Source: Pseudoalteromonas piscicida
GTDB taxonomy: Bacteria > Pseudomonadota > Gammaproteobacteria > Enterobacterales > Alteromonadaceae
Assembly: GCF_002208135.1 (NCBI RefSeq)
Contig: NZ_CP021646.1
Span: 3,164,001 to 3,228,000, forward strand
Direction of reading: 5' to 3'
DNA: 64,000 nucleotides
A model generated the notes under the pieces. It had not been told where the DNA came from, ran no database searches, and saw only the letters and a list, made by a program, of their open reading frames with translations. A program made the position numbers and the translations under genes. Numbering within the stretch: position 1 is the stretch's first letter; each line of letters begins with the position of its first letter. This document shows positions 792 through 17,324 of this stretch, one piece after another.

Positions 792-906
792 TCGGCACTC
801 TACATGTTTGCGATACTGCCAAGCAGTTTACCGAATGGCTTAATAGATAGAAAGTACAAAGTTTTTATACTTTTTATTTTGTATAACGATAAAACGCATA
901 AAAGTA

Positions 907-932
907 AAAAGCGAGCCGAGGCTCGCTTTTTA
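907..932 (-). terminator. Rho-independent terminator after the S-layer-like gene
   Basis: Perfect 8-bp stem AGCGAGCC/GGCTCGCT (911-918 and 921-928) with a 2-base spacer, flanked by A and T runs. It lies 20 bases beyond the stop of the minus-strand gene and could work in both directions. Confidence 0.8.
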
Positions 933-950
933 GACTAGCTAAAAGTTAAA

Positions 951-2243
951 TTAGTTAACTTTAACGTGGTCTTGTACTTCTTTGTTGTAGTAAAGCGCGC
1001 TTACTTCGATGTTAGCTTCTGGAGCGTTAGTAGTAACGCGGATACCAGCAACACCTGTTACTTCATTTTCTTTAGCAAGTGCGTCAACAGCAGCAGTGAT
1101 GTTGTTTACTGCGTGCTTACCAGCTGTGCCAACTTTCTTAGCAGCAACCATTTTGCCGTTGAAGTAAAGTTCAACAGAGATATCACCTTCAACTGTACCG
1201 TTATTAGTTACAGTAATGTAACGTGAGTAAGCATCAGTGAAAGGCATGATTTCAACAAACTCAGTGTCACCGTTTAGTTTCCATGTAGCAACAGCTGAAT
1301 CGTTAGCTAGAGCAAGAACAGCTTTGTCGTCTGCATCAATTAGGTTTACGTCAGCAGTGAAAGTTTGAGCTGTTAGAGCTGATTTTTTAGCATCGTCAGC
1401 AGGTAGAGTGAATGCTACTGCTACGTTACCTGTAGCTAGTGCAGCACCATCTACAACAGCTTTAGCGCTGCTCTTATCAGTAGCGATTGTCGCTTCTTTA
1501 GCACCAACAGTTACTTTGTCAACACCAGCGAAGTCACCAGTAATTACTACTTCATAGCCATCGTTAGTTACTGCACCAGCCTCAACAGCAGTTACAGTGA
1601 AAGCAAGAGAAGCGTCTGAGTATGTGCCGTCAGCGAACTTCTTACGCATTTCAGCTACGTCAATAGTACCTTTACCTTCAGTGATCTCTAGCTTGAACTG
1701 GTTTGCACCTAGGAATACTGTGTCTGTGTCATTCTTAGTTGTATCGATTGAGATACCTTGTGCAGTTTCAGCTTTAGAAGTAAGTGTTACTTTACCTTCG
1801 TTAGCAATAGAAGTTACTTTGAATGCAACAGCAGCATCAGCACCAGCACCAGCTGTTAGGCTATAAACGCCGCCTTTAGTACCAGCAGTACCTGCACCGT
1901 TGTCTTCTACGTTAGTAACACGGAATGTTAGTACTGAATCTGTTGAGTTAAGAAGACCAAATGTTACGTCGTCTTGCGCACCAGCAGTTTCGTCAGCAAC
2001 TAGAGTGTACTCTTCAGTATCCGCGAAAGTACCGCCAGCAGCAGTGATTTTGATGATGTCACCAGCTGTGTACTCTGCACCTAGAGTTAGTTTGATGTCG
2101 TTTTTTGCGTCTAAAGTTAGACCTTTTGCAGCTGCAGCTACACCTTCAACACCAATAGTTTTTTCAGTAACTGTAGTTTGAACAGCAGAAGCAGAAGTTG
2201 CAACACCAGCCAAAGCTAGCGCTAGTAGAGATTTTTTGAACAT
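951..2243 (-). CDS. S-layer-like secreted surface protein
   Basis: Encodes about 430 residues beginning MFKKSLLALALAGVATSASA, a clear Sec signal peptide with cleavage after Ala20. The mature part has no cysteine, is rich in Ala, Thr, Val, Asp and Gly, is acidic, and looks like successive beta-sandwich repeats. I see no lipobox, transmembrane segment or catalytic motif. This is how S-layer proteins look; the Slr4 family described from Pseudoalteromonas tunicata is the likeliest relative, but I could not align it. The start (ATG at 2243) is chosen over upstream ATGs because the signal peptide begins there and a GGAA lies just before it. The gene is single, with a strong promoter, a long leader and a terminator, all consistent with very high expression. 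It lies directly downstream of a type II secretion cluster that may export it. Confidence 0.7.
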   Translation of the reverse strand: MFKKSLLALALAGVATSASAVQTTVTEKTIGVEGVAAAAKGLTLDAKNDIKLTLGAEYTAGDIIKITAAGGTFADTEEYTLVADETAGAQDDVTFGLLNSTDSVLTFRVTNVEDNGAGTAGTKGGVYSLTAGAGADAAVAFKVTSIANEGKVTLTSKAETAQGISIDTTKNDTDTVFLGANQFKLEITEGKGTIDVAEMRKKFADGTYSDASLAFTVTAVEAGAVTNDGYEVVITGDFAGVDKVTVGAKEATIATDKSSAKAVVDGAALATGNVAVAFTLPADDAKKSALTAQTFTADVNLIDADDKAVLALANDSAVATWKLNGDTEFVEIMPFTDAYSRYITVTNNGTVEGDISVELYFNGKMVAAKKVGTAGKHAVNNITAAVDALAKENEVTGVAGIRVTTNAPEANIEVSALYYNKEVQDHVKVN

Positions 2244-2622
2244 GTTTTCCATTCTCCAAAGTTTCATGAAACAAGAACAATGCGTGTTCCCATTTTTCTT
2301 ATATTTGATCATTCAATTAGGCCGTCACCCAAGTGACATCCGATCAAATCCATGCTTAGTCTAACCATTGTCTCTGCATTGTCAAGCAGTTAACTTTGCA
2401 AATACTAAGCGTTAATACAAATAACATAGCACAGCCCAAAAGACCACAAAAAAAACACCTAAAAATCAAAAGGATAAGATTATAAAACCAAATAAACTGT
2501 TGTTTTTTTAGGCGTTTTCAATTGTAAAAAAAAGTATAAAACCCAGATTTACTGTATGCTATTGAATAAGATAAGCAACTTTTTTGTCAGTTTTATGACT
2601 ATATTAGCGCAATCTACTTCAT
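2244..2622. other. AT-rich intergenic region and leader of the S-layer-like gene
   Basis: This 379-base gap holds the minus-strand promoter and a leader of about 110 bases. The leader contains a small GTCAC/GTGAC hairpin (about 2322-2336) and a purine-rich ribosome site. The remainder (about 2390-2622) is very AT rich; I see no gene in it and no convincing terminator for the upstream gspD. Confidence 0.6.
2358..2385 (-). promoter_or_regulatory. Putative sigma-70 promoter of the S-layer-like gene
   Basis: On the minus strand a perfect TTGACA (2380-2385) is followed after 16 bases by TAGACT (2358-2363). Transcription would start near 2350, giving an untranslated leader of roughly 105-110 bases before the ATG at 2243. 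Confidence 0.6.
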
Positions 2623-4680
2623 CTAGTTAGATTTATTATTACTAAAATCTAAACTGCTTAGATTCTTCTTAAATGCATCCATCACGCCTTGCCACTGCTC
2701 AGATGCCTCAACTACTCTTGGTGTCACCATGACAACAAGTTCGGTTTTGGTATTGGTGTCTTTTTTACCGTCAAACAGCCTACCAAGCACCGGAAGATCC
2801 GAGAAGAAAGGCACGCCAGTATTCGTTAGACTATTGTTTTGACTGATCAAGCCACCCAGCATAATAGTTTGTCCATCAGCTGCTATCACCTCAGTTTTAA
2901 TATTGCGGGTAAAAATTGTCGGTTGATTATCCGCGGCCTTATCACCTGATGCTTGATTACTGATCTCTTGCTCAATTTCCATCAAAATAACACCTTGCGC
3001 ATTGACGGTTGGAGTTACATTTAGATCAATACCCGTTTTACGATACACCACAGAAGCGCGAGATCCATTTACTGGATCGGTTATAATATCACCCGCAGTT
3101 GGGATTTCATCTCCTACAGCAATATTCGCCTCAACCCCATCACGAACAGCAATAGTTGGTCTCGAGAGTACATTAACGTTTTGATTTTTCTCAAATAGTT
3201 GAATATCTAGCTTACCCGTTAATCCTTCTAATACGTAGTTAAGTCCGGTTTCTGTACTTCCAGTAAAATTGTAGTAACCCGTTCTCGCAGCGCGATTATT
3301 AGCCAGTGCAAATTTAACCCCTTGACTAAACTCGTCCGTCAGTGTGACTTCGGCGATAAGTACTTCAAGCACAACTTGCTTTGGCATCACGTCCAAACGC
3401 TTCACTAAGGGAAGTAAGCTGCGATATTCCGAACCAGACGTGTGAAAAATAATGGCATTGGAGCGCTCATCCACTACCATACGCAGGTCTTCATTATTGA
3501 CACTTACGCTTGTATTTCGCGGACTTGATTCGCGCTGCTCTTTTGCCTCTGACGTTGCCGAAGTTGAGCGGCTGACAGCAGAACTATTTCCACCACCCAG
3601 CAAGTTTTGCAAACTTTGGCCTAAATCGACGGCTCGTGCAAACTCGGGCTCAAAAATAAAGTATTGCTTCTCGTTGCCATCTGCTGGCTGATCGAGTTGC
3701 TGCGACCAAAACTCAACGCGCTGTAAAAAAGCCTCATTATTGGTGAAGAAGACCAAACTATTAGTACGCTCAATAGCGACCATGCTAACCGCTTGCTCTG
3801 TAGAACCTGAACTATTACTGCTTATGCCTTCTTGCTTTAACAGCTCGCCAAGTTTTTTACTCAACTCTTTTGCAGGCATAAACACCGATTTATACATACC
3901 AATATGACGGTCTCTGAATGCAGGCTTATCCATCATTTGCATAAATTCAAGGGCTCTGATCACCTCGGCACGCTTACCTTTGAACATTATCGCATGCTGG
4001 TCAAATAGCGGTTGCGCATCTACGTTTGTCATCTGCCTAATAGTGTTCGCAAGTGGCGTTTGCATACCACTGGTAAATGGCGCAATCTGTATAATGCTAC
4101 TGGCGGTGTTAGGTACATCTTCTACTTTATTACCATAGCCATACACCACATTACCACCAGAGGCATTCTCAGAGGGGTGGATATAAAAAATATCATCCTG
4201 CTCGCGAATAATAATACCGCGTTCAGTTAACAAGTCTTGGCTGATAGAAAATAAACGGCGCTTGCTTAGCTGCTCTTTAAGATTAATTGTTATTGCGTCG
4301 TCACTGTTGGTGATTGCATCTCCAATGATGTAATTAACGCCAAGTAAATCGCCAAATACATAATGCAAATAGTCCTTAACTTTGAGGCTGTCCGCGGTCA
4401 ACTTTACTTGCTCGTTATCACTAAACTGTTGCGCTAAGTTTGGTTGGCTGGTTTGTGTTACTTTACCATCAGGTAATGCAGGTAAATATACCAAGCCGCT
4501 CGATTGCGTCTGCGGACGCGCTTTTTCGTCGTGTGACGACAAGTCGTTATTGACTGTTTTGCCTTTACTCTCTTTTTCTAAGTACGAGCCATTGACTGCA
4601 ACTGAGTTAGGTACTGAACTACATGCCGACAGTCCCGCTGTGACAATAAAACCGAGTAAGATTTTCTGTGCTTGTTTCAT
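2623..4680 (-). CDS. gspD: Type II secretion secretin GspD, lipoprotein form
   Basis: Outer-membrane secretin, about 685 residues, forming the exit pore of a type II secretion system. The chosen start (ATG at 4680) follows a GGAAG ribosome site and gives a lipoprotein signal ending LSAC, so the N-terminus should be lipidated. Then come N0/N1-like ring domains (about 90-370, with a Ser/Asn-rich linker near 355-390) and the C-terminal secretin domain, with the conserved VLSRPTI and VPFFSDLPVLGRLF motifs. Most GspD proteins have an ordinary signal peptide and need a separate pilotin. A lipidated secretin is known in the Hxc system of Pseudomonas aeruginosa (HxcQ), where the lipid replaces the pilotin. 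That fits the absence of a pilotin gene here. It is the last gene of the cluster, just upstream of the S-layer-like gene. Confidence 0.9.
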   Translation of the reverse strand: MKQAQKILLGFIVTAGLSACSSVPNSVAVNGSYLEKESKGKTVNNDLSSHDEKARPQTQSSGLVYLPALPDGKVTQTSQPNLAQQFSDNEQVKLTADSLKVKDYLHYVFGDLLGVNYIIGDAITNSDDAITINLKEQLSKRRLFSISQDLLTERGIIIREQDDIFYIHPSENASGGNVVYGYGNKVEDVPNTASSIIQIAPFTSGMQTPLANTIRQMTNVDAQPLFDQHAIMFKGKRAEVIRALEFMQMMDKPAFRDRHIGMYKSVFMPAKELSKKLGELLKQEGISSNSSGSTEQAVSMVAIERTNSLVFFTNNEAFLQRVEFWSQQLDQPADGNEKQYFIFEPEFARAVDLGQSLQNLLGGGNSSAVSRSTSATSEAKEQRESSPRNTSVSVNNEDLRMVVDERSNAIIFHTSGSEYRSLLPLVKRLDVMPKQVVLEVLIAEVTLTDEFSQGVKFALANNRAARTGYYNFTGSTETGLNYVLEGLTGKLDIQLFEKNQNVNVLSRPTIAVRDGVEANIAVGDEIPTAGDIITDPVNGSRASVVYRKTGIDLNVTPTVNAQGVILMEIEQEISNQASGDKAADNQPTIFTRNIKTEVIAADGQTIMLGGLISQNNSLTNTGVPFFSDLPVLGRLFDGKKDTNTKTELVVMVTPRVVEASEQWQGVMDAFKKNLSSLDFSNNKSN

Positions 4681-4693
4681 AGTGCTTCCGTCG

Positions 4694-5203
4694 TTATTGC
4701 TTCGTACTTTGGTACATAATAAGCGTGATATGCTGGTCACCCTTGTTGAGTTCTACTTTTACATTAGAGTTAATAGTCAAAATAAAATCTTCTATCACTT
4801 CGCCCTGATTAAACCTTTTTAGTTCATTGGCACCATTTTTGACTGACGTAATATCTATCAGGGCGTATGTAGATTCAGGTGAGTGTACCACCGCCTTCAA
4901 TCTCAACTCTTTATCGCGAGCAAAAACAGAAGTCAGCTCCCCTGTTTGTTTTGCCTGCTCATCTGGACTCATGCCATTATCTTGCGACTCTGGCCGTTCT
5001 ACTTTTTTAACAACCCATGTGTCAAGCGTACGCTCAATATCATGCTTACTTTGTTCTGATAGCTTAGGTAAAAACGTTTGTTCAGCGTTATTCAGCCTAA
5101 ACGGCTTACTGTCAGCATTAACTTCTGTTTGTAAGCGAGTGACGGCGTCAATAGCAAAGAGTGTAAGCATAAAAATACTGATATAAATGTATAGTTTATT
5201 CAC
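4694..5203 (-). CDS. gspC: GspC-like inner-membrane protein
   Basis: Short bitopic protein (about 169 residues) with one membrane segment near residues 5-22, a charged linker, and a C-terminal domain of about 70 residues (LKAVV...ALIDI...GEVIEDFILTINS). That domain has the pattern of the GspC homology region, which contacts the secretin N0 domain and couples inner and outer membrane parts. The start is a GTG at 5203 overlapping the end of the gspM-like gene, with AAGGGG upstream. No PDZ domain is present, so it is shorter than classical GspC. Assigned from domain pattern and from its place directly before gspD. Confidence 0.7.
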   Translation of the reverse strand: MNKLYIYISIFMLTLFAIDAVTRLQTEVNADSKPFRLNNAEQTFLPKLSEQSKHDIERTLDTWVVKKVERPESQDNGMSPDEQAKQTGELTSVFARDKELRLKAVVHSPESTYALIDITSVKNGANELKRFNQGEVIEDFILTINSNVKVELNKGDQHITLIMYQSTKQ

Positions 5204-5762
5204 CCTTAGCCCCTTCTTGTAAGTAAAAGGAGAGCAACAAGCTAACTTCTCCACTCCCTGTTTCTTCAGCGCTCAGCCCTTGTATATTTAAATCAAAATA
5301 TTCAACAACTACGACTGGTGATTGAGATTCGAGCATAACCAAAAAGGCAGCGAGATCGGTCAACTTTCCCGAAATATTTAGTCTAATTTGCTCCTTGTGC
5401 AGAGCCGCTGATTGATATTTTAGTGCTGGCTGCCAACCTATATTAATGGTCGACAAGTTATGCTCTGTGAGCCATTGATTGACTTGCTTTTGTGTATCAA
5501 TTCTAAACTTCGAGGGTTCTTGCCAATCAAATAACATTGCAGTGAAAACACGTGCTACATCAGCAACCTGCTCTTTTGCGAGCTCGATTTGTTGAAGCTG
5601 TGTCATGACCTGTTCCGCTTTAAATAGGCGCTTCTCAATTTGAGCGATATTCTCAACTTGTTCCTCCTGCCATGTGAAAAGCGGAACTAATGCAAATTTT
5701 ATTGTGGCTAACAGAATTACCAATGCTAGGAGCATTTTATATTGTTTTAGTTGCTCAACCAT
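5196..5762 (-). CDS. gspM: GspM/PilO-like assembly protein
   Basis: About 188 residues: a short cytoplasmic N-terminus, one membrane helix (about 9-30), a coiled-coil stretch (about 35-80), and a ferredoxin-like C-terminal domain as in GspM/PilO. In type II systems this protein pairs with GspL to form the inner-membrane platform. The ATG at 5762 overlaps the stop of the preceding gspL-like gene; an ATG 7 codons upstream is an alternative. Sequence conservation in this family is low, so the call rests on topology, size and operon position. Confidence 0.65.
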   Translation of the reverse strand: MVEQLKQYKMLLALVILLATIKFALVPLFTWQEEQVENIAQIEKRLFKAEQVMTQLQQIELAKEQVADVARVFTAMLFDWQEPSKFRIDTQKQVNQWLTEHNLSTINIGWQPALKYQSAALHKEQIRLNISGKLTDLAAFLVMLESQSPVVVVEYFDLNIQGLSAEETGSGEVSLLLSFYLQEGAKGE

Positions 5763-6888
5763 GGTCGCCACCCGTACGTTCATTTATTGGCTGATATTCA
5801 GCTTTATAGGTACTTGCCGGAATTGTATAGCTAATTACAAACTCTTCTTTTCCTTGATAGCTTCTGACGGGGAAGTCAAATTTAGGATCTAGAACCCAGT
5901 CAAACTCACTGACTGACTCGAGGACGGCAATAGCATTAGAGCTTTCTCCTCGAATTACAAATCGGTCGCCTTTGTATTGTAAGCTTTCGATCCTTGCTTT
6001 ATCCCGAACGCTATCCAATAAAAGCAAGTTTGGTGAAACCTTAGGTACATCCTGCATTACTGCTTGCCAATTTTCGACTCTACCCTGATTCTTTTCATAC
6101 TCTGAAAATGTAGATAATGCTTGATTAATATTACTTTGATTTCCACTGAGCTCAGCTTGGAGATATTCTTTTTTGGCCACCAAGTAAGCACTACTTAGCG
6201 CTAAGTATGATACGCATGCAATGGCGCTTAACACTGCAGATTTTTTGAAATAAGCTTGATAAGCCAATAAACCTTGTGGCTGGATAAAGCTAGATACAAA
6301 GCGCTTAAGAAAAGGAAAGATAGACTCGACCATGCGCTTTACTAGACTTCTCTCTGAATCTATTTCAGAAACGGTATCAAAGCTTATGCCAACCGTGTTT
6401 GCAAAACGCTCAGGGGAATTCACTAACCCAAAGCGAGCAACGGAATATATCACCTGATTTCTTTGTGCAAGGTAATACTCGTTATTAACCAAGGTGATGC
6501 TCGAATTAGATTCACCGATGGCAATTAACACCGATTCAGGTATCACAACTAATGAGCCTTCAGCTTTTATATCGAATAACCAACTGTTTAAAATTGACGT
6601 ACTTTCATCTTGAGCGCGGATCTGCGTGGAATAACATTCAACATTGTGCTTCTGCTTACGCAGTTTCAACAAGCTATTTAATGCTTTACGATCAGTAACA
6701 GGTAGTTTGTCGACTTGCTCAATATAATGGTTTCTAGCAACGATTTGGATAAGCTTTGGTGATGACGACTTGATTAAATGCCACCCACCCTTATCATAGT
6801 TAAGATGAAAGTGCTGACTATCTTTGTAGTAACTAACCAGATTACAAATCAGCCTTTTTTGCCAACCTAGCAATGCATGTTCACTCAT
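5755..6888 (-). CDS. gspL: GspL/PilN-like platform protein
   Basis: Protein of 377 residues with a cytoplasmic domain (about 1-215), a single membrane helix near 218-240, then a coiled coil and a periplasmic domain. This matches the layout of GspL, which recruits the GspE ATPase to the membrane. I see no typical actin-fold motif in the cytoplasmic part, so it is a divergent member. It ends by overlapping the gspM-like gene and starts 7 bases after gspK. The assignment depends mainly on order and topology. Confidence 0.65.
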   Translation of the reverse strand: MSEHALLGWQKRLICNLVSYYKDSQHFHLNYDKGGWHLIKSSSPKLIQIVARNHYIEQVDKLPVTDRKALNSLLKLRKQKHNVECYSTQIRAQDESTSILNSWLFDIKAEGSLVVIPESVLIAIGESNSSITLVNNEYYLAQRNQVIYSVARFGLVNSPERFANTVGISFDTVSEIDSERSLVKRMVESIFPFLKRFVSSFIQPQGLLAYQAYFKKSAVLSAIACVSYLALSSAYLVAKKEYLQAELSGNQSNINQALSTFSEYEKNQGRVENWQAVMQDVPKVSPNLLLLDSVRDKARIESLQYKGDRFVIRGESSNAIAVLESVSEFDWVLDPKFDFPVRSYQGKEEFVISYTIPASTYKAEYQPINERTGGDHG

Positions 6889-6895
6889 TGTGTTA

Positions 6896-7747
6896 TTAAC
6901 CTTCCGAAGCCACTAAATTTACTGGCTTTGACTTGTTTGGATCTAATAGGTAATAAAGCGTACGACTTACGCGTGCATCGCCCAGCTGAGTCTCGATTTT
7001 TATCTTATAATTACTGGACGGAAACAAAGTGATGTTTCGGCTTTCCTCAACCCCTGTATACGCTGAAAATAATGCTGGGGTTAACGTTTTCTCATTACGC
7101 ATCTTTATAATTTGTTCTACTACTGGTACGTCATACAAACTATGTAACAAACTATCAGGAGCTGTCATCGGATTAAACACACTTTTCTTATACATTGTGG
7201 CATTTTGCTCCAAGTACTTACGCAAAGAACTTGAGATATTCAAATGTGATAGCTCAGACCACGTTTGAATGATACCGTTTTTATAATCTGATTCTGGTAA
7301 AGAGTGCTTAGATAACTTATCGACATCTTGCCAATCTTGTATTTGGCTCAATAGTAGCCGAGCATCATAGTCGCTTAGTCCCTTGTGCGTCAATACTCGC
7401 AACCACCTTTGTTCCGATGGATAACTAAGATTAAGCAGCCCCCTTAAATCTTGAAGGCGGATGCTCGCGTGGTCTCCATAACGAAAATCTTCACCATAAA
7501 AATTCCAGACGCCAGTTAGTGCTGGCAGATCATTTGAAAAAGGCGAAGTTGGTGACTTTGACTCTGTTAATAACGCAAAAAGAACCGTTGCTTCAGCATC
7601 ATAATTATCAACCAGAGCTTGTGCTCTGTTGTCGAATGCAGCTGCTATTTCAACTTGCTGCCGTGCTGTTTTAGTCATGAACAAGCCAAGTAAACTAAGC
7701 ACAGCGGTGATAAGTAAAACTTGCAGTAAAGCTATTCCTTGTTGCAT
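6896..7747 (-). CDS. gspK: GspK-like minor pseudopilin
   Basis: Protein of 283 residues that starts MQQGIALLQVLLI, a prepilin-type N-terminus with a Gly cleavage site and a long hydrophobic helix. It has no Glu at mature position 5, which is usual for GspK and unlike the other pseudopilins. The large globular domain after the helix (helical, with Asp-rich segments) is also a GspK trait; GspK caps the pseudopilus tip in a complex with GspI and GspJ. The ATG overlaps the gspJ stop (TAATG), so the two are translationally coupled. Confidence 0.8.
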   Translation of the reverse strand: MQQGIALLQVLLITAVLSLLGLFMTKTARQQVEIAAAFDNRAQALVDNYDAEATVLFALLTESKSPTSPFSNDLPALTGVWNFYGEDFRYGDHASIRLQDLRGLLNLSYPSEQRWLRVLTHKGLSDYDARLLLSQIQDWQDVDKLSKHSLPESDYKNGIIQTWSELSHLNISSSLRKYLEQNATMYKKSVFNPMTAPDSLLHSLYDVPVVEQIIKMRNEKTLTPALFSAYTGVEESRNITLFPSSNYKIKIETQLGDARVSRTLYYLLDPNKSKPVNLVASEG

Positions 7748-8412
7748 TAAAACATCCCGCTTTCAATAAAGTGGCCTTTCCAACGACTGGGATCCCTATC
7801 TAACTGGGAAAAAAGCGTAAAGTCATCAATATTCAATTTAATATACTCAGGCGTCAATCCTCGCTCTTGCGAGTGATAGTTTTCAAACCAGTTTGGTGCT
7901 GTTCCTGGCGTTCTACTTGACTTGAGCGTCAAATCCCGCCATCCAAAATAACTTAGATCAGCTCGCTGAAGGTTGCTAAGCAACACTTTACTATTACTGA
8001 AGTCCAGCGATTGCTCTGTAGACGTTAGTATCGTTTGTTCCAAGGCAATGGCCTGATACACCAACTGAAAATCATTTTTGTTCTGTTGGATCACCAAGCG
8101 AAATATTTCAGGTCCACCATTAATCAGGCCATTACTCGTCACCGCCAATAACCTTGATTCAGAACCTACAAAAAAGAAGGTGGGCTCCCCCGTTTTATCT
8201 CTAACAACATAGGGAATGACCCCTTTAAGTACCTGCTCAAGCTGTGCTACTACTTTCGCTGTTCGGGCTTGCTGCTGAAAATCACCAAGCTCTTTATCCC
8301 ATCGACTTGCAAACTGGAAATACGCAAAGGTACCTGTCGCCATTACTAAACTTAATAAAGTAATTGATATCAGCAGCTCAACTAATGTGAACCCTTTTTG
8401 CTTAACGGCCAC
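7747..8412 (-). CDS. gspJ: GspJ-like minor pseudopilin
   Basis: 221 residues with a prepilin N-terminus KGFTLVELLISITLL (cleavage after Gly, then FTLVE with Glu5). The body carries a YFGWRDL segment reminiscent of GspJ. It starts with GTG at 8412, overlapping the end of the preceding pseudopilin gene. In type II systems GspJ forms part of the tip complex with GspI and GspK. The call of J rather than I rests on length and on its place next to gspK. Confidence 0.75.
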   Translation of the reverse strand: MAVKQKGFTLVELLISITLLSLVMATGTFAYFQFASRWDKELGDFQQQARTAKVVAQLEQVLKGVIPYVVRDKTGEPTFFFVGSESRLLAVTSNGLINGGPEIFRLVIQQNKNDFQLVYQAIALEQTILTSTEQSLDFSNSKVLLSNLQRADLSYFGWRDLTLKSSRTPGTAPNWFENYHSQERGLTPEYIKLNIDDFTLFSQLDRDPSRWKGHFIESGMF

Positions 8413-8830
8413 GCCAACTCACCTCTTTAAATTGGTATTGACGGACTATGCCTTGAGCTTCAACCTCAAGCGAGACTTGCCATAACTTATATTGATTGCT
8501 CGTTGTTTGTAGTTGGATCGCAATATCTGAGGTACCTGAAATCGAGTCACCTTTTTCCTTAATTGCTGAGGCATCCCAGCGGAATGATACCCCTCCATTA
8601 GTGCCTGTACCTTCCAATCTAGTTTGATTAAAAGGAGCATGCCTTATGTCAAATCGTACAGTGTCCAATACTCCCGTAATTGCAGTTGAAAATTGAACAT
8701 ACTTTGATGCTTTCTCTGAACTAATAAATGCACCTCGGTAAAGCATGGAGACTGTAGTGATCACCGCCAATAAAATAACAACTGAAACGAGAAGCTCAAC
8801 AAGCGTAAAGCCTTTTTTATGGTGCATCAT
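8402..8830 (-). CDS. gspI: GspI-like minor pseudopilin
   Basis: About 142 residues beginning MMHHKKGFTLVELLVSVVIL, a typical prepilin leader with Glu5. The rest is a small beta-rich domain, as expected for a minor pseudopilin. The ATG pair at 8830/8827 overlaps the end of gspH (ATGATG around the stop), so an upstream in-frame start is not needed. The name GspI follows from gene order (H-I-J-K) rather than from a diagnostic motif, and it could equally be a second J-like subunit. Confidence 0.65.
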   Translation of the reverse strand: MMHHKKGFTLVELLVSVVILLAVITTVSMLYRGAFISSEKASKYVQFSTAITGVLDTVRFDIRHAPFNQTRLEGTGTNGGVSFRWDASAIKEKGDSISGTSDIAIQLQTTSNQYKLWQVSLEVEAQGIVRQYQFKEVSWRGR

Positions 8831-9206
8831 TACCCTGCAACTCAATTTGAAAAGGCTGTCCAAGGTAATGAGTAGTAATGCTGTCGGTTGAGATCATACC
8901 GAAGCGATTAAGCGTAATTTCTTGCTTAGGGAACTGTATGTACTTTAGTTGCTTGCTTTCGACTGCTGTTTCGCCTTGAAAAACAATACCGTTATCCTTT
9001 TCCAGTACCACCAAATAATCTCTTTGCTCTAGAAATGCTTTATTGGCTCTATTTCGCAACCAGTTTTTTACCTCAACTAACTCCATCTTTGCATCTGAGC
9101 GGTTAATTGCTTTTAGAGATAAAGGCGCTACCAAAGACATGATCAAGCCCATAATGGTAAGCACAATTAACAACTCAATCATTGTGAAGCCGCGCATAGT
9201 ATTCAT
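8817..9206 (-). CDS. gspH: GspH-like pseudopilin
   Basis: 129 residues starting MNTMRGFTMIELLIVLTIMG: prepilin cleavage after Gly, Phe1 and Glu5 present, one hydrophobic helix, then a beta-rich domain. It fits the minor pseudopilin GspH/FimT group. It sits between gspF (3 bases away) and the gspI-like gene (overlapping). Confidence 0.75.
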   Translation of the reverse strand: MNTMRGFTMIELLIVLTIMGLIMSLVAPLSLKAINRSDAKMELVEVKNWLRNRANKAFLEQRDYLVVLEKDNGIVFQGETAVESKQLKYIQFPKQEITLNRFGMISTDSITTHYLGQPFQIELQGNDAP

Positions 9207-9208
9207 GC

Positions 9209-10411
9209 TTAAAAGCCAACATCATTGAGTGAGATCATACTAAGCATCATCACAACCACGACACCACCAACAAAAACCCCCATAAAAAGGATCATCAAAG
9301 GCTCTAGAAGTGAAGTGATTCTATCGGTCCAAGTTTCAAAATCTTGCCTTGAGCGACTCGCAATTTCATCAAATACAGTTTCTAACTTTCCAGATTCCTC
9401 ACCAACTTCTAGTAGGGAAATATAAAAAGACGGATAGAGAGAAGACTGCTGCAATGAAGGCGTTAATTGATCTCCGCGTTTGACCTTTTTTCGAGCGACT
9501 TCCAATTCAGCGTAAAGCTGCTGATTCCGGATATTGCCAGTTGCGAGCGCTAACGCTTTATCTATTGGTACCCCAGCCTTTAGCATTAAGCTTAAACCGG
9601 TATTAAAGCGGATCCTTTCAACCGTTTTAACCGCAGTACCACAAATGGGAAGTTGTAATACAATTCGATGCCACCAAGCAATTATACGTTCGTTCTTACT
9701 GGTAAAATAAACTCCCGCAAAAGCAGTAACGAGTCCTAGTAATAGTAATGACTGATTTTGGTTAAACCATGCACTAGTCCCGAGCATTGCTTGTGTGTAC
9801 CAAGGTAATTGCTCAATATTCGCAAACATATCTGCCATCTTGGGAATGATCACATTAAAGATAAACAAAATACTCAGTACACAGACAAAAAAGATGACAA
9901 CAGGATAAGTAATAGCGCTAACAATTTTTTTTCTAAGGTCACGCTTAAATTTTAAATCCTGCGATAGCCCTGCGAAAGTGCCAGCAAGATCACCAGATGC
10001 TTCGCCGAGCTCAATCAAATTGCAATATAGACTATCGAAAACTTTAGGATGTGCTCTGCAGGCTTGGGAGAGACTACTGCCTTTTTTGAGGCTTTGGCTA
10101 AGATCAGACAACAACTTAGCCAATACAGGTTTAGCTTTCGTTTTTCGGATAATATCTAGGCCTCGGTCGATCCTGATGCCCGTTGCCAGTAGTAAGCTCA
10201 GCTCAGACGTGACAAACTCTAAATCGGCTAAACTGACGCGTTCTTCAAAAAAGCGGTTTCCCTGACGAGATGATTGCTGCTCTTTCAACTCATAAGGGAG
10301 CAAACCTTCTTTTTCTAGCTTTAACTGCGCTGAGGAGAGGCTATCCGCTTCAATGAGACCATCACACTTTCCTCCCATAGAGTCGAAAGCCTTGTAGCTA
10401 AACGAAGCCAT
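9209..10411 (-). CDS. gspF: Type II secretion inner-membrane protein GspF
   Basis: 400-residue polytopic platform protein with the duplicated GspF/PilC helical domain: the first copy is about 65-190 and the second about 270-390. Each is followed by membrane helices (about 165-190, 220-240 and 370-390). It carries the family signatures GEASGDLAGTF and GEESGKLETVF. GspF connects the GspE ATPase to pseudopilus growth. The start codon overlaps the gspE stop (TAATG). Confidence 0.93.
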   Translation of the reverse strand: MASFSYKAFDSMGGKCDGLIEADSLSSAQLKLEKEGLLPYELKEQQSSRQGNRFFEERVSLADLEFVTSELSLLLATGIRIDRGLDIIRKTKAKPVLAKLLSDLSQSLKKGSSLSQACRAHPKVFDSLYCNLIELGEASGDLAGTFAGLSQDLKFKRDLRKKIVSAITYPVVIFFVCVLSILFIFNVIIPKMADMFANIEQLPWYTQAMLGTSAWFNQNQSLLLLGLVTAFAGVYFTSKNERIIAWWHRIVLQLPICGTAVKTVERIRFNTGLSLMLKAGVPIDKALALATGNIRNQQLYAELEVARKKVKRGDQLTPSLQQSSLYPSFYISLLEVGEESGKLETVFDEIASRSRQDFETWTDRITSLLEPLMILFMGVFVGGVVVVMMLSMISLNDVGF

Positions 10412-12060
10412 TAGCCAGCAACCCTCACCACTTCATCAATGGTAGTTTGACCTAAGATCGCTTTATAAAGACCATCCTCTAGTAAAGTGCGTCGATTTCT
10501 GCTCGCGTTATGCACTTTTGCTTTTTGAATAAAATCAGCATCTTTTGGAGTACTCTTGATAGTATCGTCACATGCTAAGTACTCAGTAATAGCCAAGCGC
10601 CCTTTGTAGCCTGTATGTGCACATTTCTCACAACCACTACCACGCTGTAGATTAATTTTATCTAAGGAAAATTTGGCAGCAATATTGTCTAGATCATATT
10701 GTTTGATTAACTCAATACTGTCCGGATCACTTGTCGCGCAGTGTTCACAAACCTTGCGTGCCAAACGTTGGGCAACCACAGAGATTAATGCCGCATTTAG
10801 CAAAAACTCTTCAACCCCTAAGTCTAGAAGACGAGTATATGCGCTCGCCGCATCATTCGTGTGTACCGTTGAGAACACCAAGTGTCCAGTCAATGCGGAC
10901 TGTAATGCAATTTGTGCGGTCTCTTTATCTCGGATCTCACCAAGCATAATAACATCAGGATCTTGACGAACAATTGAGCGAAGGCCAGCGGCAAAATCAA
11001 AACCTATTTCACTATTTACCTGAACCTGATTGATACCTTCAAGCTGATATTCAACAGGATCTTCGAGTGTTATAATCTTAACGTCATCATTATTTAGTGC
11101 GTTCAGGAAAGTATAAAGTGTTGTTGTTTTACCCGACCCTGTTGGTCCTGTTAACAAAACAACCCCCGCGGTCTTCTTTATATCTTCTCGGATACTTTGT
11201 TCTATATCTTGAGATAACCCTAATACAGACATTTCATATCTGACACTTTCTTTCCTAAGAAAACGCATTACGATGGACTCACCATCATTAAGTGGTAAAG
11301 CCGAAACCCGAATATCGATGTCTTGATTAGCAATCTTCATTTCAATCTTGCCATCTTGCGGACGCCGACGCTCAGCGATATCCATACCTGATAAAATTTT
11401 CAGTCTCGTAACGATGGGTAACTGTTTGCTAGCGGGAATAACCTCTGCTTCGTGTAATACCCCATCAACACGAAACCTTGCTCGATAGCGCCCCTCATAT
11501 GGTTCAAGGTGCATATCAGAAGCTCCTTGTCGAAGCGCTCGACTTATTAACGAGTTTAGTAAGTTAACTGTCGGCGCTTCCGTTGCCAACTCTTTGAGCT
11601 TTTCTTCTTCTGCGCTGAAGATATCTGATTCAACTTCTTCGGATGTATCAAGTTTTGATTTAAGTAAGTTAATATCTGATGCAGAAGCTAAGATGATATT
11701 AGGGTTAATCTTATGCTTGAATAGCCATTGGTTCATGAAAGGATCTAAAGGCTCTAGTACCGCAAAACTCCAATTGCTTTCATCAGTGCTTAGCGGTACC
11801 CAATTATGCTCGAGACAAACCTCTACATCTGAAGAAATTTTTATTTCTTCACTATCGAAATCACTAAGCTGCTCCGAAGTAATCATTGGAAGGTTTAGAT
11901 ACAGCGCATAAAGATCGAGCAATTGGTCTTCTGGTAAACTACCCATATTTACCAATATTTGTTCAAGCCTACCGCCATATTTTTGTTGGTAGTTTAACGC
12001 TTTTTCAATATCACTAGAATTGACTTCAAAGCGTTCAGTTAGTAGTTGATTAAGTTCCAT
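10411..12060 (-). CDS. gspE: Type II secretion ATPase GspE
   Basis: Cytoplasmic ATPase that drives pseudopilus assembly, about 549 residues from the ATG at 12060. An N-terminal GspE/PilB N1-type domain (about 1-140) is followed by the AAA-type core: Walker A GPTGSGKTTT (about 305-314), the Asp box, Walker B with MLGEIRD, and the His box TGHLVFSTVHTND. A tetracysteine zinc motif (CEHC ... CEKC) is intact, as in most GspE. A longer upstream start exists but would overlap gspG; the shorter start begins like other family members. Confidence 0.93.
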   Translation of the reverse strand: MELNQLLTERFEVNSSDIEKALNYQQKYGGRLEQILVNMGSLPEDQLLDLYALYLNLPMITSEQLSDFDSEEIKISSDVEVCLEHNWVPLSTDESNWSFAVLEPLDPFMNQWLFKHKINPNIILASASDINLLKSKLDTSEEVESDIFSAEEEKLKELATEAPTVNLLNSLISRALRQGASDMHLEPYEGRYRARFRVDGVLHEAEVIPASKQLPIVTRLKILSGMDIAERRRPQDGKIEMKIANQDIDIRVSALPLNDGESIVMRFLRKESVRYEMSVLGLSQDIEQSIREDIKKTAGVVLLTGPTGSGKTTTLYTFLNALNNDDVKIITLEDPVEYQLEGINQVQVNSEIGFDFAAGLRSIVRQDPDVIMLGEIRDKETAQIALQSALTGHLVFSTVHTNDAASAYTRLLDLGVEEFLLNAALISVVAQRLARKVCEHCATSDPDSIELIKQYDLDNIAAKFSLDKINLQRGSGCEKCAHTGYKGRLAITEYLACDDTIKSTPKDADFIQKAKVHNASRNRRTLLEDGLYKAILGQTTIDEVVRVAG

Positions 12061-12064
12061 AAAG

Positions 12065-12481
12065 TTACTGATGAACGATATCTGCGTTAGTTTCTTCACC
12101 ACCTTCTTGGCCATCAGCACCCAGTGACTTCAATAAGTAAGGCGCGCCATTATCTCCAGGAACTTTATAAACATATGCGTTGCCCCAAGGGTCCATAGGG
12201 ACATCTTTTGGTAGATATGGTCCATCCCACCTTGCCACATCACTGCTTCTCAATTCCTGCAATGATTTTGGATAGCTACCAACATCTAGTCGATAAGTAT
12301 CAATTGCAGTTTCAAATGATGACATTTGAGCAGCTGCTATTTTACGCTCTGATGAACTCAGCCTTTTGAAAAAGTCAGGAGCGACTAAAGACATTAACAG
12401 GCCTAAAATTACGATCACAATTAACAACTCCATCATGGTGAAGCCGTTATGTTTATTCTTTGTCTTCATATTGTTTGTCAT
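12065..12481 (-). CDS. gspG: Major pseudopilin GspG
   Basis: 138 residues with a textbook prepilin leader (HNGFTMMELLIVIVILGLL; cleavage after Gly, Glu5). The compact C-terminal domain has the GspG signature of DPWGN followed by YLLKSLGADGQEGGE, the loop that binds calcium in GspG. It is the structural subunit of the pseudopilus. It is the first gene of the secretion cluster, 4 bases before wecA in map terms (wecA lies upstream in transcription), and 4 bases before gspE. Confidence 0.95.
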   Translation of the reverse strand: MTNNMKTKNKHNGFTMMELLIVIVILGLLMSLVAPDFFKRLSSSERKIAAAQMSSFETAIDTYRLDVGSYPKSLQELRSSDVARWDGPYLPKDVPMDPWGNAYVYKVPGDNGAPYLLKSLGADGQEGGEETNADIVHQ

Positions 12482-12485
12482 TGAA

Positions 12486-13559
12486 CTACTCTTTAATTCT
12501 GTTTTTGATAAAGACGTGCTTTCTTAAAAACCGTGCTACCTTCCATGCATGTTGAATACAAGCAGAATAAGCAACAAAAATACCGATAAATAAGACTAAC
12601 ATAAACCAATGGGGAATACCTATCAACTCTCCAACAATCCCTATCGACGCAAGAAATACAGCCAACATTGATATCGTAATTAAGGCCTTTCTGGAGCTAA
12701 AACCTATACGCATAAAGACATGATGTAAATGATCTCTGTCTGCTTTGAATGGAGAATGGCCTTTTTTAACACGCCTAATGATAATTGCCATCATATCCAT
12801 CAGTGGAATAGCAATTATCCAAAGCGCAGTAACAGGGCTGAAAGCGTTATCTACTTCTGATTGTGTAGCTATCATTAATAACCAAATGACGCTCAGCCCA
12901 ATGAACATAGAGCCCGCATCACCCATAAATATTTTCTTATTGCGGTGGCCTAGGACGCCTAAGTTGAAAGCAAGGTAAGGAACTATGGTTGCAATAATGA
13001 TTAAGGGTAAAACTGACAACTGCCCACCATTAACCCCCATTAATATTAAAATGGCTGCAAACGTTGTAATACTCATGGCACCAGCTAGGCCGTCTATACC
13101 ATCAATCATGTTAAAGGCATTTATCGCAGCGATAACAGCAATGACTGTAAAAGGAATGCCAAACAACCCTAAGTCGATAGACCCAAATCCAAACAAGTTA
13201 CCCAAATTATGAATATAAGCGTCGGAGCCCCACATCATAATAAGTGCAACTAGAGCCTGAACACCTAAACGGATCTTGACTCCCAACTGGCGATAATCGT
13301 CAATAACCCCAAGAAGGACGATAGCAGCAGCGCAAATTAAGTAAACTATCAGCTTTTTCTCAAGTGGCAAAAATACAATGATTGAAGCCAACACTGCTAC
13401 AAAAATTGATACGCCACCAATCAGCGGAATAGCACCTACATGCTTTTTTCGGCTACAGGGTACGTCAACTAAGCCAAAACGCTCAGCGACTGGCTTAATC
13501 ATAAAAATTGAACAGTACGATGCTAAAAATGCAAAAAAAATGACCATAAAGATCCACAT
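12486..13559 (-). CDS. wecA: WecA-like undecaprenyl-phosphate sugar-1-phosphate transferase
   Basis: 357-residue polytopic enzyme of the MraY/WecA family that loads the first sugar phosphate onto the lipid carrier for O-antigen or capsule. Visible motifs are VGAIPLIGG (about 42-50), DDYRQLG near 107-113, NAFNMIDGIDGLAG near 147-160, FMGDAGSMFIG near 210-220 and DRDHLHH near 273-279. The last is the WecA-type His box rather than the MraY one. GlcNAc-1-phosphate is the usual substrate. It lies between the wzz-like gene and gspG, in the same direction. Confidence 0.85.
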   Translation of the reverse strand: MWIFMVIFFAFLASYCSIFMIKPVAERFGLVDVPCSRKKHVGAIPLIGGVSIFVAVLASIIVFLPLEKKLIVYLICAAAIVLLGVIDDYRQLGVKIRLGVQALVALIMMWGSDAYIHNLGNLFGFGSIDLGLFGIPFTVIAVIAAINAFNMIDGIDGLAGAMSITTFAAILILMGVNGGQLSVLPLIIIATIVPYLAFNLGVLGHRNKKIFMGDAGSMFIGLSVIWLLMIATQSEVDNAFSPVTALWIIAIPLMDMMAIIIRRVKKGHSPFKADRDHLHHVFMRIGFSSRKALITISMLAVFLASIGIVGELIGIPHWFMLVLFIGIFVAYSACIQHAWKVARFLRKHVFIKNRIKE

Positions 13560-13658
13560 GCTTCCATCATTATATAATTAACGCGCCATTGTAATAGAAA
13601 TTAAATTTAAACTAAATTGCCAATAACACTAAATAACAACTCTCTACCTTACCCACAA

Positions 13659-14603
13659 CTACTTTCTGAGCACAAAATGTCTAAATAATAACAGAACAAA
13701 CGCAAGTACACTGCCTAGGAATGTAATACCAAGGCAAATCAATGCACGCTTTGGTCCAGCTTTTTGGATCGGCAGAATGGCAGGGTCAATTGTCTTAAAC
13801 ACATATTGTGACTGTGTTTGCGCTAACATCTTTGTCTGCTCTTGTTGCTCTATCAGCTGGTAAAATATCTTTTGCATATCCGCAACCGATGTTTCAGCTA
13901 ACGCTTTTTTCAAATACTCAATCTTTACATTGGACTCTGCAACTGCTTCAGCTTTCATGTAATCGTTGATTTCAACAACGATGTTTTCCACCATTTCCTT
14001 AGCTAAGTAAGGGGAATAATGAGTCATTGCAATAGTAATTAGTCCCTTTTCTTTTTCTTCTATCACAGCTAAATTTTGTGCTCTGATATGTTCATATACT
14101 TCTTGGATCCCTGGCTCTGGCTTAAAAGGTGCAGCAACATCTCTGAGCCAAATACCAGTCTCCTTATCATAAACCTCAGCGTTATATACTAGCTGATTAC
14201 TGCCCAGATCCCATCCCTTGGTGGCCATAAGTTTTGGCTTTAGCTCATATTTCTCAACGAAGTTATTTAAAAATGAGCGACTTTGCATTACTTGAAGCGC
14301 AAGAGCTGATTTATCGCCCTTTCCTCCACCTAAGTTCACCCCTGCCATTGCAGCTAAGCCGCCAAACTCCGATTTCAAATTTGATAGCATGCCGCCTTGA
14401 GTATCTTCAACAGGTGAAAGTAATACTGTCGCTTTATAAGTATTCGGTAGAGAAAGTGCAAAAAACACACTGGATACAGCAAATACAGCAGTGATTAATA
14501 TAATTAGCCACTTTCCCCTCCAAAGCACTGACAAAATTTCAGTCAAATCAACTTCATTTTTTTTAATAATATCAGCTTCAGTCATCTGTTTATTGTTATC
14601 CAT
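13659..14603 (-). CDS. Wzz-type polysaccharide chain-length protein
   Basis: 314 residues with an N-terminal membrane helix (about 33-53), a periplasmic alpha/beta and coiled-coil part, and a second helix near the C-terminus (about 285-307). It includes the conserved Pro-rich stretch before the last helix (AILPIQKAGPKRA). This is the Wzz/co-polymerase layout that sets polysaccharide length. The ATG overlaps the stop of the export gene, so the two are coupled. There is no cytoplasmic kinase domain, so it is not a Wzc-type tyrosine kinase. Confidence 0.88.
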   Translation of the reverse strand: MDNNKQMTEADIIKKNEVDLTEILSVLWRGKWLIILITAVFAVSSVFFALSLPNTYKATVLLSPVEDTQGGMLSNLKSEFGGLAAMAGVNLGGGKGDKSALALQVMQSRSFLNNFVEKYELKPKLMATKGWDLGSNQLVYNAEVYDKETGIWLRDVAAPFKPEPGIQEVYEHIRAQNLAVIEEKEKGLITIAMTHYSPYLAKEMVENIVVEINDYMKAEAVAESNVKIEYLKKALAETSVADMQKIFYQLIEQQEQTKMLAQTQSQYVFKTIDPAILPIQKAGPKRALICLGITFLGSVLAFVLLLFRHFVLRK

Positions 14604-17259
14604 TAGTTGTTAAGCGTTGCAATTGAAGCCGCAGCTAAGCCAAGCTGATAAATAATCTGTGTCGCTGTACTCCACAGTGTCAAGCTATCAATATGTTGAG
14701 CGTCTAGAGGTACAACGATCGTGTCGCCCGGCGCTAGTTGGCCGCCATGGCTGCTGACAGCAAACCATGATCCTGAACTTGGTAATTCAACAGAACCATT
14801 GGCTTTTATGATGTAAATACGCTCGTCATCCGCTTTTTGCTTTAATCCACCGCTAGCTTTAATGTAGTCATCAACAGACTTGGATGAATCGAATAAGTGC
14901 GTTGCAGCCAGATTAACCTCACCAATGACACTAACCGAGTCTTGTATCGCTGGGATATATAACGCATCGCCATCTTCTAACTGCAAAGATTGAGTTGAAC
15001 GTTTATCGAGATCAATAACCAGACGTCCCAAGGCCTCAACCTTCGATAAATCCTTTAATATTTGATCCATATCTTCGTATGGCATTGAAGTATTAGCAGT
15101 CGCACTTTTTTGGAAAGTATTAGTAATGATATCGCGTCTTAGCTCTTGTGTTAGGCGTTGAATTTGCGAAGTTTCTTTACGCTTGATAGATTCACGCGTA
15201 AAAATTGCTGCTTCTTTATGTGCAAATTGATTAAAACCGCCAACTCTTTCAAGCAGGCTATCAAGTGTCTCACCACGCTTAATAGTGTACGTCCCTGGAA
15301 ATTTAACCTCACCAACAACCTTAACTTGCAGTCTTTCTTGCCAATTAGGTCTTGGGAAAATGTTAACAGTATCTTTGCTTGTCAGTATTTGAGTTGGATT
15401 TGTCAACTCGTTCAAACCATTAAACTGGATATGTTCAACCTGTTTACCACCATTATAAACAACACGAGTTAACTCAACCTGTTCCAGATACGCAGCTTCA
15501 AGAAAGCCACCGCCAGCTTGCACCGCTTTTTGGAAATCTGCATTTTCAGATAATGGATAAACACCAGGAAACTTAACTTGACCGTTTACTGCAAATAACT
15601 TTGCAGGTTCGCTAGGTGTAGCCTGCCTCTGTAGCTTAGCGACAATTGGCGCAAGTAGCTTTTGACGACTAAATACCGCATAGTCTTCTTCTTCTACGTC
15701 TTCAGGCTCTTGAAAAAGTGCATCAATACTTGTGATTAATTTAACTTCTTCCTCAAGCTCAAATAGTTCATCTTCTTTCAAGCCAATATATTTTAAGAAC
15801 TCATCACGCTCAAATTGCTCCCATAGCTTCACGTTTTCACGTAGTTTTAGTTGCTCTTTGTTATACGCTAGATCTTCTAATAACTGTTCTTCTTCTTCTT
15901 TAAGCTGGTAGCGGCTAAATACAACGATTGTATCGTTAGATGCGAGCTCTATATCCCCGCTTTACCGTTAAAAATATCTTGTAAAGAAAACTGGTGGATC
16001 TCTATGTCACCTTCAAAATTCACTTCACGAATAATCAATGAGTAGCCAAAATCTGCAATGGATAGCAAATCTTCGCGTGGTGCACTAAAGATATCTTTGA
16101 GTGTCTTGCCCTGATGCCATTCATAATGACCAGGACTGGTTACCGCACCAACTACAGTTACCGTATTTTGGAAACGAGTTGAAGCAGCATTGACCGAAAT
16201 CTCATCACCGTTTTGGGGTTTGTAGCTAGTGTTTTCAGTAAAGTTGTAGTTTAGGGTAATACGCCTTCCATCACCGTTGTAGCGTGAGACAACCACTTTC
16301 GATTTGTTTGCATTTGCTTTGAAGCCTCCGGACATAGCCATCACACTATCAAGCGAGTCCGACTCTTTAAGCTCAAAGATTGCTTGACGGTTAACTTCAC
16401 CTTTTACTTTTATTTTCTTGGCTGCTGGCGGAATAAATACAACATCGCCTGGCTTTAACACTACATCATCAGAGCTATCACCAAATAGCAATAAGTCATA
16501 GAGATCGAAAGTAGTAACTAGCTTACCTGCTCTTTTGACTTGGATTTTTCTAAGTGAACCATTATCACTAACGCCGCCAGAAACAAACAGAGCATGTGTG
16601 ACGGTGGCAAGAGGAGACACTGTATAACTACCCGGTCTATAAGCTTCACCCACCACCATAATACGCATCGGGTTCAGTTCACCCATCGAGACGAAAGCTT
16701 GAACACCGATCATTTCCTCAGAGATTTTTTTCGAGATCAGTGCTTTTAATTCCTTGAACGATAAACCAATTACGTGAATTGGACTTAGGTTAGGAATGGC
16801 GAGACGTCCTTCACGATCGATTTGTACTTCATGCTCTTCATTGGTTTTACCATACAGGTTGATTTTTACCGTATCTCCAATCCCAAGCAAATAGGTATCA
16901 GGGATTGCAGCCAACTCTGAAGGCATAAAAGTTGTCGGTTCTCCTGCGAATAGCTCATAACCAAAAGGTTTAAGTTCTTCTAACTTTGGTTTGAACTTAT
17001 CCTCCTCTTCTTCCTCTTCCAGCAACCCTTTTTTGTCACGAGGTAAAATCGAAGATTCCTTCTCTTCGTTCTTTTTATCACCTTTGTTGTTACTATCTAA
17101 CGCACTTACATCGAAACCGTAACGTTTTGCTAAGGCTTCTTGTTGTGCTTTGGGGAGCTTTTTGAACTGCTCTATTTGCTGTTTACTTGGAGTGATTGCC
17201 AGTGATTGATGTGACGTCAATATGAGCATTGAGAGGAGTAATAGTCTGAGGAACTTCAC
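14603..17259 (-). pseudogene. SLBB-domain polysaccharide export protein, apparent frameshift
   Basis: Outer-membrane/periplasmic export protein (OPX, Wza-like) with a Poly_export domain (about 115-200) and several SLBB beta-grasp domains along the rest. The start is a GTG at 17259 with GGAAGAG upstream, giving a Sec signal MKFLRLLLLSMLILTSHQSLA. The frame stops at 15949, but the next frame continues without loss as DIELASNDTIVVFSRYQ right through to 14603. Restoring one base in the C4 run at 15955-15958 (G4 on the coding strand) gives one 885-residue protein. I therefore read it as one gene with a -1 shift, a sequence error or a recent mutation. The downstream piece alone (from an internal Met at 15832) would lack a signal peptide. 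It heads the minus-strand run of polysaccharide and secretion genes. Confidence 0.85.
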
Positions 17260-17324
17260 GTAAATCTCTTCCATTGTGGATTTTTGTTAAACTTCAGGCA
17301 TTCTACCGAAGTTTGGAAGAATTA

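Follow-up and report, generated by a model that had tools for sequence, protein, structure and literature searches.

We investigated a stretch of 64,000 nt from the genome of Pseudoalteromonas piscicida (5.3 Mb in two contigs; contig NZ_CP021646.1, positions 3,164,001 to 3,228,000 of the forward strand), which as a whole is called the window here. From position 17274 down to position 1 all genes lie on the minus strand: an OPX polysaccharide export gene in two open reading frames (ORFs), the genes for Wzz and WecA, the type II secretion system (T2SS) genes gspG-E-F-H-I-J-K-L-M-C-D, the gene slr4 for a surface layer (S-layer) protein and a DegT aminotransferase gene (Table 1). An original prediction, made from the sequence alone, had described this block as a candidate dedicated S-layer export and anchoring locus with export, lipid-carrier priming, secretion and S-layer-like genes on one strand, and the genes that it named are present (in part by profile match, in part by position).

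The coat protein belongs to the Slr4 family. Within the long ORF, residues 85-448 match nearly the whole of PF19526 (profile positions 1-369 of 370; 7e-34; 118.1 bits, cut-off 25), i.e. the search against S-layer families that had been suggested with the prediction leads to a known S-layer family and not to an unrelated one. From its probable start at 2243 the protein comprises 430 amino acids (aa) without a single cysteine, and what looks by eye like a Sec-type leader, MFKKSLLALALAGVATSASA, can be seen in the sequence. The nearest named proteins are those of P. piscicida (83 and 73%). The predicted high expression is supported by codon use: the codon adaptation index of slr4 is 0.865, compared to 0.34-0.51 for the gsp genes and 0.67-0.81 for six ribosomal protein reference genes, and its codon bias is the strongest among 21 genes of the window and these six. 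Because a promoter-like (2385-2358) and a terminator-like site (932-905) frame the gene, slr4 is probably its own transcript; the numbers of such sites in the region do not exceed those in shuffled sequences (3 vs 3.7 promoter-like and 1 vs 2.0 terminator-like sites). An AlphaFold model based on 59 aligned sequences (mean predicted local distance difference test score, pLDDT, 90.6; predicted template modelling score 0.77) reads as a series of beta-sandwich domains. In fold searches it matches adhesin and pilin domains of the Ig-like and sandwich types as well as domains 5-6 of the S-layer protein SbsC (1.3e-3), while RsaA is not among the structural matches listed; since these matches have low template modelling and middling Z scores, only the general architecture is claimed. 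This differs from the beta-helix that I-TASSER threading gave for Slr4 of P. tunicata, where the authors discussed the weak alignment (PMC7821379). In five loci from three genera (L024, L058, L061, L028, L057) slr4 occurs in two or three tandem copies 3' of gspD.

Secretin, ATPase, platform and major pseudopilin of the T2SS are all present (PF00263, PF00437, PF00482, PF08334), with the NCBIfam equivalog cut-offs reached by GspG and missed by GspD and GspE. The putative GspL (5755..6888) has no Pfam match, the T2SS GspC model is matched by none of 37 members of the putative GspC family (4694..5254), and neither gspN nor gspO is seen among the ORFs of the block. Three secretin matches were found in the genome: PilQ near pilM-P-like ORFs, an operon in the canonical gspC-N order (L007; profiles confirm D and E, and the remaining genes are assigned by ORF reading) and gspD of the window. 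As the genome also holds this canonical operon and the PilQ system, the T2SS of the window is indeed a second T2SS and not the only one. The prepilin peptidase family has a single match in the genome, located outside the block. The two systems also differ in the domains of GspE, which carries an MshEN domain in the window and an N1E domain in the canonical operon. Control of GspE by cyclic di-GMP was considered and dropped, as the NCBIfam c-di-GMP motif stays below its cut-off (35.1 vs 38), and no binding is claimed; motif patterns of our own matched none of 83 GspE-type rows and are maybe too strict, because even the pilus ATPases among these rows were missed. A plasmid search (tblastn) with GspD returned 943 distant records, none with at least 60% identity.

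Table 1. Features of the S-layer locus in the window
Feature	Position	Strand	Evidence
OPX, N-terminal part, Poly_export and SLBB, early frame end	15949..17274	-	PF02563, PF10531
OPX, C-terminal part, SLBB repeats, different frame	14603..15832	-	PF10531, PF22461
Wzz chain-length determinant	13659..14603	-	PF02706, 56.4 bits
WecA, lipid-carrier priming enzyme	12486..13559	-	TIGR02380, 410.9 bits (cut-off 326, above)
gspG, major pseudopilin	12065..12481	-	TIGR01710, 130.6 bits (cut-off 88.85, above); PF08334
gspE, ATPase with MshEN domain	10411..12120	-	PF00437, PF05157; TIGR02533, 518.5 bits (cut-off 630, below)
gspF, inner-membrane platform	9209..10411	-	PF00482
gspH-like minor pseudopilin	8817..9206	-	PF07963 (N_methyl) and position
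gspI-like minor pseudopilin	8402..8863	-	PF07963 and position
gspJ-like minor pseudopilin	7747..8412	-	PF07963 and position
gspK, minor pseudopilin (weak)	6896..7747	-	NF037980, 56.2 bits (cut-off 130, below)
gspL-like by position; marker profile of the S-layer T2SS	5755..6888	-	no Pfam match; profile search of 395 genomes
gspM (weak)	5196..5783	-	PF10741, 23.0 bits (cut-off 21.7, above)
gspC, by position only	4694..5254	-	T2SS GspC model matched by 0 of 37 family members
gspD, secretin	2623..4740	-	PF00263, 152.5 bits; TIGR02517, 296.7 bits (cut-off 351, below)
Promoter-like site 5' of slr4, TTGACA-16-TAGACT	2358..2385	-	pattern; weak alone
slr4, S-layer protein, Sec-type leader MFKKSLLALALAGVATSASA	951..2243	-	PF19526, 7e-34; AlphaFold mean pLDDT 90.6
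Terminator-like site 3' of slr4	905..932	-	12-pair stem and T-rich tail
DegT/DnrJ-type sugar aminotransferase, incomplete at the window edge; first gene of a polysaccharide cluster	1..791	-	PF01041

For comparison we used 81 loci, i.e. the window and 80 fetched places. The latter were taken from a list of 84 (drawn up without G076, G206, G298 and the window), leaving aside G158, the second G082 copy, G196 and G239. G076, G196, G239 and G298 joined the sample with 20 loci added later; G158, G206 and the G082 copy are outside it, as are several extra slr4 copies per genome. In 76 of the 81 loci the T2SS extends from gspG or gspE to gspD, and all eleven genes are recognised in 61. The remaining five loci comprise three on short contigs (L015, L043, L066), L073 with G, E and F only, and L075 with slr4 alone. 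In every one of the 76 loci the recognised genes follow the order G-E-F-H-I-J-K-L-M-(C)-D; the unusual order noted in the original prediction is not peculiar to this genome.

Slr4 and this type of T2SS are distributed together. Among 395 genomes of the host's family, representing 52 genera, PF19526 was found in 86 genomes from 32 genera. A GspL profile built from 44 rows of the loci and run over the same genomes gave, among the matches listed, 87 genomes with at least 146 bits and 12 with 59 to 106 bits, the weaker matches coming from shorter ORFs that we take as PilN-like. Counting strong matches, 80 genomes have both Slr4 and GspL, 6 only Slr4, 7 only GspL and 302 neither, which bears out the expected co-occurrence of S-layer gene and gsp set, in a table that is flattered because the GspL profile came from Slr4-positive loci. 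Among the six with Slr4 only, two carry a second, putative coat-protein family described below as family B (G196, G239), one has its locus on short contigs (G347), one has lost most of the T2SS (G081) and two were not assigned (G158, G206); of the seven with GspL only, five carry family B and two a divergent Slr4 that scores 169 and 43 bits with a profile of our own. Slr4, family B or a third type, C, occurs in each of the 99 family genomes that have this GspL type, though on a different contig in a few drafts. Outside the family, nine more Slr4 genomes were found among 375 of the order, eight of them with GspL (at least 185 bits).

The same picture emerges from GspE phylogeny. In a tree of 83 rows, including 46 from Slr4 loci, the S-layer systems form one group (Shimodaira-Hasegawa-like approximate likelihood ratio test 100) apart from 16 canonical GspE proteins; in a second tree with half of those Slr4 rows and 20 class-level relatives added, the group is kept (100) and the canonical T2SS lie further off. 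Both are quick trees and were flagged for long branches meeting. T2SS lineage and coat-protein type coincide on the first tree; the family B group has a support of 99 there and of 76 in the second tree. Pseudoalteromonas is present in the Slr4, B and C parts, and for this reason whole modules seem to move between lineages. The class-level search yielded matches at E <= 1e-150 in 56 of 364 genomes, and stretches from 20 of these 56 were examined; gspD was recognised in 11 of the 20 stretches, and a crude pattern detected a signal-peptide-like ORF on the same strand directly after it in three (L176, L178, L184), the ORF of L178 looking like a membrane protein. The ORF of L176 (17517-19034), from another family of the class, encodes a signal-peptide-like protein of 496 aa after gspD of an E-first T2SS and is possibly a coat protein.

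How does the locus compare with known systems? The Xps-type T2SS of Xanthomonas, which exports enzymes, runs from E to D with gspD last. The window likewise ends with gspD, but has gspG moved to the front, and its GspM finds its best model in XpsM (37.2 bits, below the cut-off of 60). The core of the arrangement, Slr4 with an adjacent and possibly dedicated T2SS, is already known and is not new here, as it was published in 2020: Ali et al. showed with a knockout that Slr4 is the S-layer protein of P. tunicata D2, described a conserved T2SS operon immediately upstream of slr4 and proposed a dedicated T2SS (PMC7821379), a proposal restated by AnnoView in 2024. P. tunicata D2 and the window share the protein family, the T2SS directly upstream (G, E, F, K, D and others) and the proposal itself; WecA, O-antigen and Wza have no match in the main text of that paper (PMC7821379), and the window contains WecA and OPX. 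In Aeromonas hydrophila AH-1 the genes spsE-F-G-H-I-J-K-L-M-orf2-D-vapA lie inside the O11 cluster, and the Aeromonas S-layer is tethered to lipopolysaccharide (PMC4413209). This T2SS too ends with M-orf2-D followed by the coat gene within an O-antigen cluster, a likeness of gene order only; it differs from the window in having gspG after F instead of first and in O-antigen export by an ABC-2 transporter (Wzm/Wzt) instead of OPX/Wzz (PMC4413209). Upstream of the NpdA coat gene of Paracidovorax citrulli and its relatives there are 12 gsp genes, and a second gsp cluster is present; NpdA, likened here by description only, is another protein and is mostly found in terrestrial and aquatic bacteria, Slr4 mainly in marine ones (PMC10765051).

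The comparison revealed a variant of this arrangement. The 20 loci added later contain GspL, with Slr4 unclear or on another contig. Fifteen of them encode a secreted-looking protein of 571-652 aa, which we call family B, two a protein of type C and two a divergent Slr4, and one ends at a contig edge. A family B profile run over the 395 genomes found full-length members in these 15 genomes only and weak partial matches (up to 39 bits) in four others. Scanning genome contigs separately gave 15 named loci, including those of Pseudoalteromonas amylolytica, P. lipolytica, Pseudocolwellia agarivorans, Paraglaciecola hydrolytica and Rheinheimera baltica. In six loci the family B gene follows gspD, and in the other nine it precedes gspG. 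A decayed second copy with 11 internal stops was seen in one genome far from the T2SS (G370, C1:8385-9832).

In hmmscan at E <= 0.01 no Pfam family matches any of the 15 B proteins, not even PF19526, which had matched three of them in the genome search (G196, G239, G298); a weak NCBIfam match of one protein (0.0075) points to an unrelated family. By hhalign the C-terminal parts of B and Slr4 align with a probability of 97.9 (E 5e-13) and the N-terminal parts weakly, with 53.9 (1e-4), compared to values below 1 for four unrelated control profiles. With the HMMER bias filter off, eight of the 15 B proteins match our Slr4 profile (E <= 1e-3 in a database of 15 sequences), and composition contributes, as in seven of these eight matches the bias correction is larger than the score; in the reverse search the B profile matches nine of 79 Slr4 rows at E <= 0.01. 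Because the HMMER matches depend on the bias filter, the claim of homology rests on hhalign. In the structural models the C-terminal domain has an identical order of strands and helix in both proteins, the B model being of lower confidence (pLDDT 72.5). A fold search with the B model gave generic sandwich matches only, and a sequence search of solved structures nothing convincing for either protein. If the machine or the surface recognises one part of these proteins, the shared C-terminal domain would be the best candidate.

There are 4 or 6 cysteines in each of the 15 B proteins. Among coat-type proteins of at least 300 aa, all 92 have an even number, which is zero in many Slr4; four shorter Slr4 sequences are outside this count. 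A DsbA-like gene follows directly after B in 13 of 15 loci (two members scanned: Thioredoxin_4), and none is found in the other 86 loci or in 21 canonical control loci. T2SS substrates fold in the periplasm, and an oxidase that often appears to travel with a coat protein of four or more cysteines, as in family B, fits this rule. Its position, size, leader and shared domain suggest that family B may be an S-layer family.

The genes flanking the T2SS raise the question of anchoring. Beyond the DegT gene a polysaccharide cluster spans, by ORF reading, most of the next 40 kb (L005, L004). Ten of its proteins were scanned and comprise a hexapeptide transferase, two oxidoreductase/dehydrogenase types, WecG-type and group 1 glycosyltransferases, a UDP-GlcNAc 2-epimerase, two flippase-like proteins, a Wza-type OPX and a NusG-type regulator. 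Within it (L004, 11064-14949 and 16007-16486) the Wza-type OPX gene, Wzc-like and phosphatase-like ORFs (by reading) and, downstream of the locus, the NusG-type (RfaH-like) regulator are found. An RfaH ops element was searched for in the window with a pattern and rejected: 3 one-mismatch matches compare with 2.43 expected, none of them before OPX. On the other side of the T2SS, in 74 loci with at least 4 kb upstream, OPX was found in 46, WecA in 36, Wzz in 6 and OPX or WecA in 49; counted by genus, 23 of 29 have OPX or WecA on the upstream side of gspG. We also searched with 38 queries from the polysaccharide locus of this genome, and at least one homologue is present in 80 of 101 fetched loci (the 81 and the 20 later ones), vs 0 of 21 canonical T2SS loci taken from other genomes, mostly of the same genus. 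The S-layer of Caulobacter is held by O-polysaccharide. Since WecA, Wzz and OPX genes flank the T2SS, the coat may, like the S-layers of Aeromonas and Caulobacter, be docked on polysaccharide, here made at the same locus, a suggestion that we rate slightly below an even chance. Of the predicted export and anchoring locus, the export half is thus well supported by comparison, while the anchoring half is circumstantial (OPX or WecA in 49 of 74 loci, and OPX broken in the window). In titles and beginnings of abstracts of the open-licence literature, no link of Slr4 with a polysaccharide locus was found.

The Slr4 family, the gene order, the linkage, the GspE clade and the codon bias are established by the analysis. 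Taken together they point to an S-layer locus whose T2SS is, in our judgement, quite likely dedicated to the export of Slr4. Several observations weigh against this reading or against the anchor at the same locus. A second slr4 copy in one genome (L075) has no T2SS gene in its stretch, the other copy (L068) having the T2SS; a further slr4 locus (L073) shows gspG, E and F only, and in L086 slr4 sits 4.4 kb from gspD. The training of the GspL profile on Slr4-positive loci belongs here as well. The OPX gene of the window is split into two ORFs in different frames that cross near 15952-15961, while uncut relatives (e.g. L077, L017) are single stop-to-stop ORFs of 897-973 codons. Thus the gene is interrupted in this strain or the sequence is in error, two cases that are indistinguishable from the sequence, and of the predicted OPX-Wzz-WecA block Wzz and WecA hold, but a single intact OPX gene does not. 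Neither OPX nor WecA is present in 25 of the 74 loci, and 21 of the 101 loci contain no polysaccharide homologue; as 17 of these are 19-20 kb long, nine of them in genus g26, a locus-encoded anchor is not universal. In the texts consulted on Slr4, VapA and NpdA, a secretion or anchoring experiment on Slr4 was not found.

These points have to be set against the comparative data. That the T2SS also exports enzymes or adhesins, Slr4 being only its most abundant and neighbouring substrate, would agree with the nearest GspE relatives outside the S-layer clade, which are T2SS spread over the class, and with the signal-peptide-like ORF directly after gspD in only three of 11 gspD-bearing class-level stretches; however, the constant presence of Slr4, B or C in the 99 genomes with this GspL and the coincidence of lineage and coat type on the GspE tree render it unlikely. 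Export of Slr4 by the canonical T2SS or another route, with the neighbouring T2SS serving something else, we consider very improbable: L075 and L073 could be read this way, but co-occurrence, gene order and co-inheritance of slr4 with this T2SS speak for the opposite. The polysaccharide genes, for their part, might only mark a hotspot that swaps surface genes and have no role for the S-layer. The loci lacking both OPX and WecA would be expected then, and in AH-1 the S-layer genes seem to have been inserted into the wb cluster, next to a wzm gene that is truncated. On the other hand, OPX or WecA recurs upstream of gspG in most genera and polysaccharide homologues are absent from all 21 canonical loci, so that such a hotspot is conceivable, but somewhat doubtful.

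If the T2SS is dedicated to the S-layer, the process might be pictured as follows. Slr4 would be made at a high level, probably from its own promoter, reach the periplasm by the Sec route and fold there. The folded protein would then be pushed through a T2SS that serves Slr4 only, separate from the canonical T2SS of the cell, with the single prepilin peptidase presumably shared by all these systems for pseudopilin processing. Once outside, Slr4 would assemble into a lattice on the cell surface, and a polysaccharide that WecA primes and the flanking genes produce would be its plausible docking layer. Substrate specificity, anchoring and the role of the C-terminal domain are all three inferred. 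In each lineage such a T2SS would export one type of folded coat protein, and we tentatively propose an exchangeable module, in which the T2SS is constant, Slr4, B (with its DsbA-like partner) or C plug in, the C-terminal domain acts as a tag for export or docking and the WecA/OPX polysaccharide provides the dock. This exchangeable slot and family B seem to be new.

Selection, export and anchoring of S-layers are known in detail for few Gram-negative species. The window alone is of modest value as a member of a published kind; the variant came from the comparison. If our reading is correct, species such as Pseudoalteromonas lipolytica, Paraglaciecola hydrolytica and Rheinheimera baltica would possess, with family B, a new kind of S-layer protein, and what a T2SS recognises in its substrate could be studied on a small target, the shared C-terminal domain. 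If the machine is constant and the coat exchangeable, the T2SS may serve as a search handle for S-layers that have so far gone unseen.

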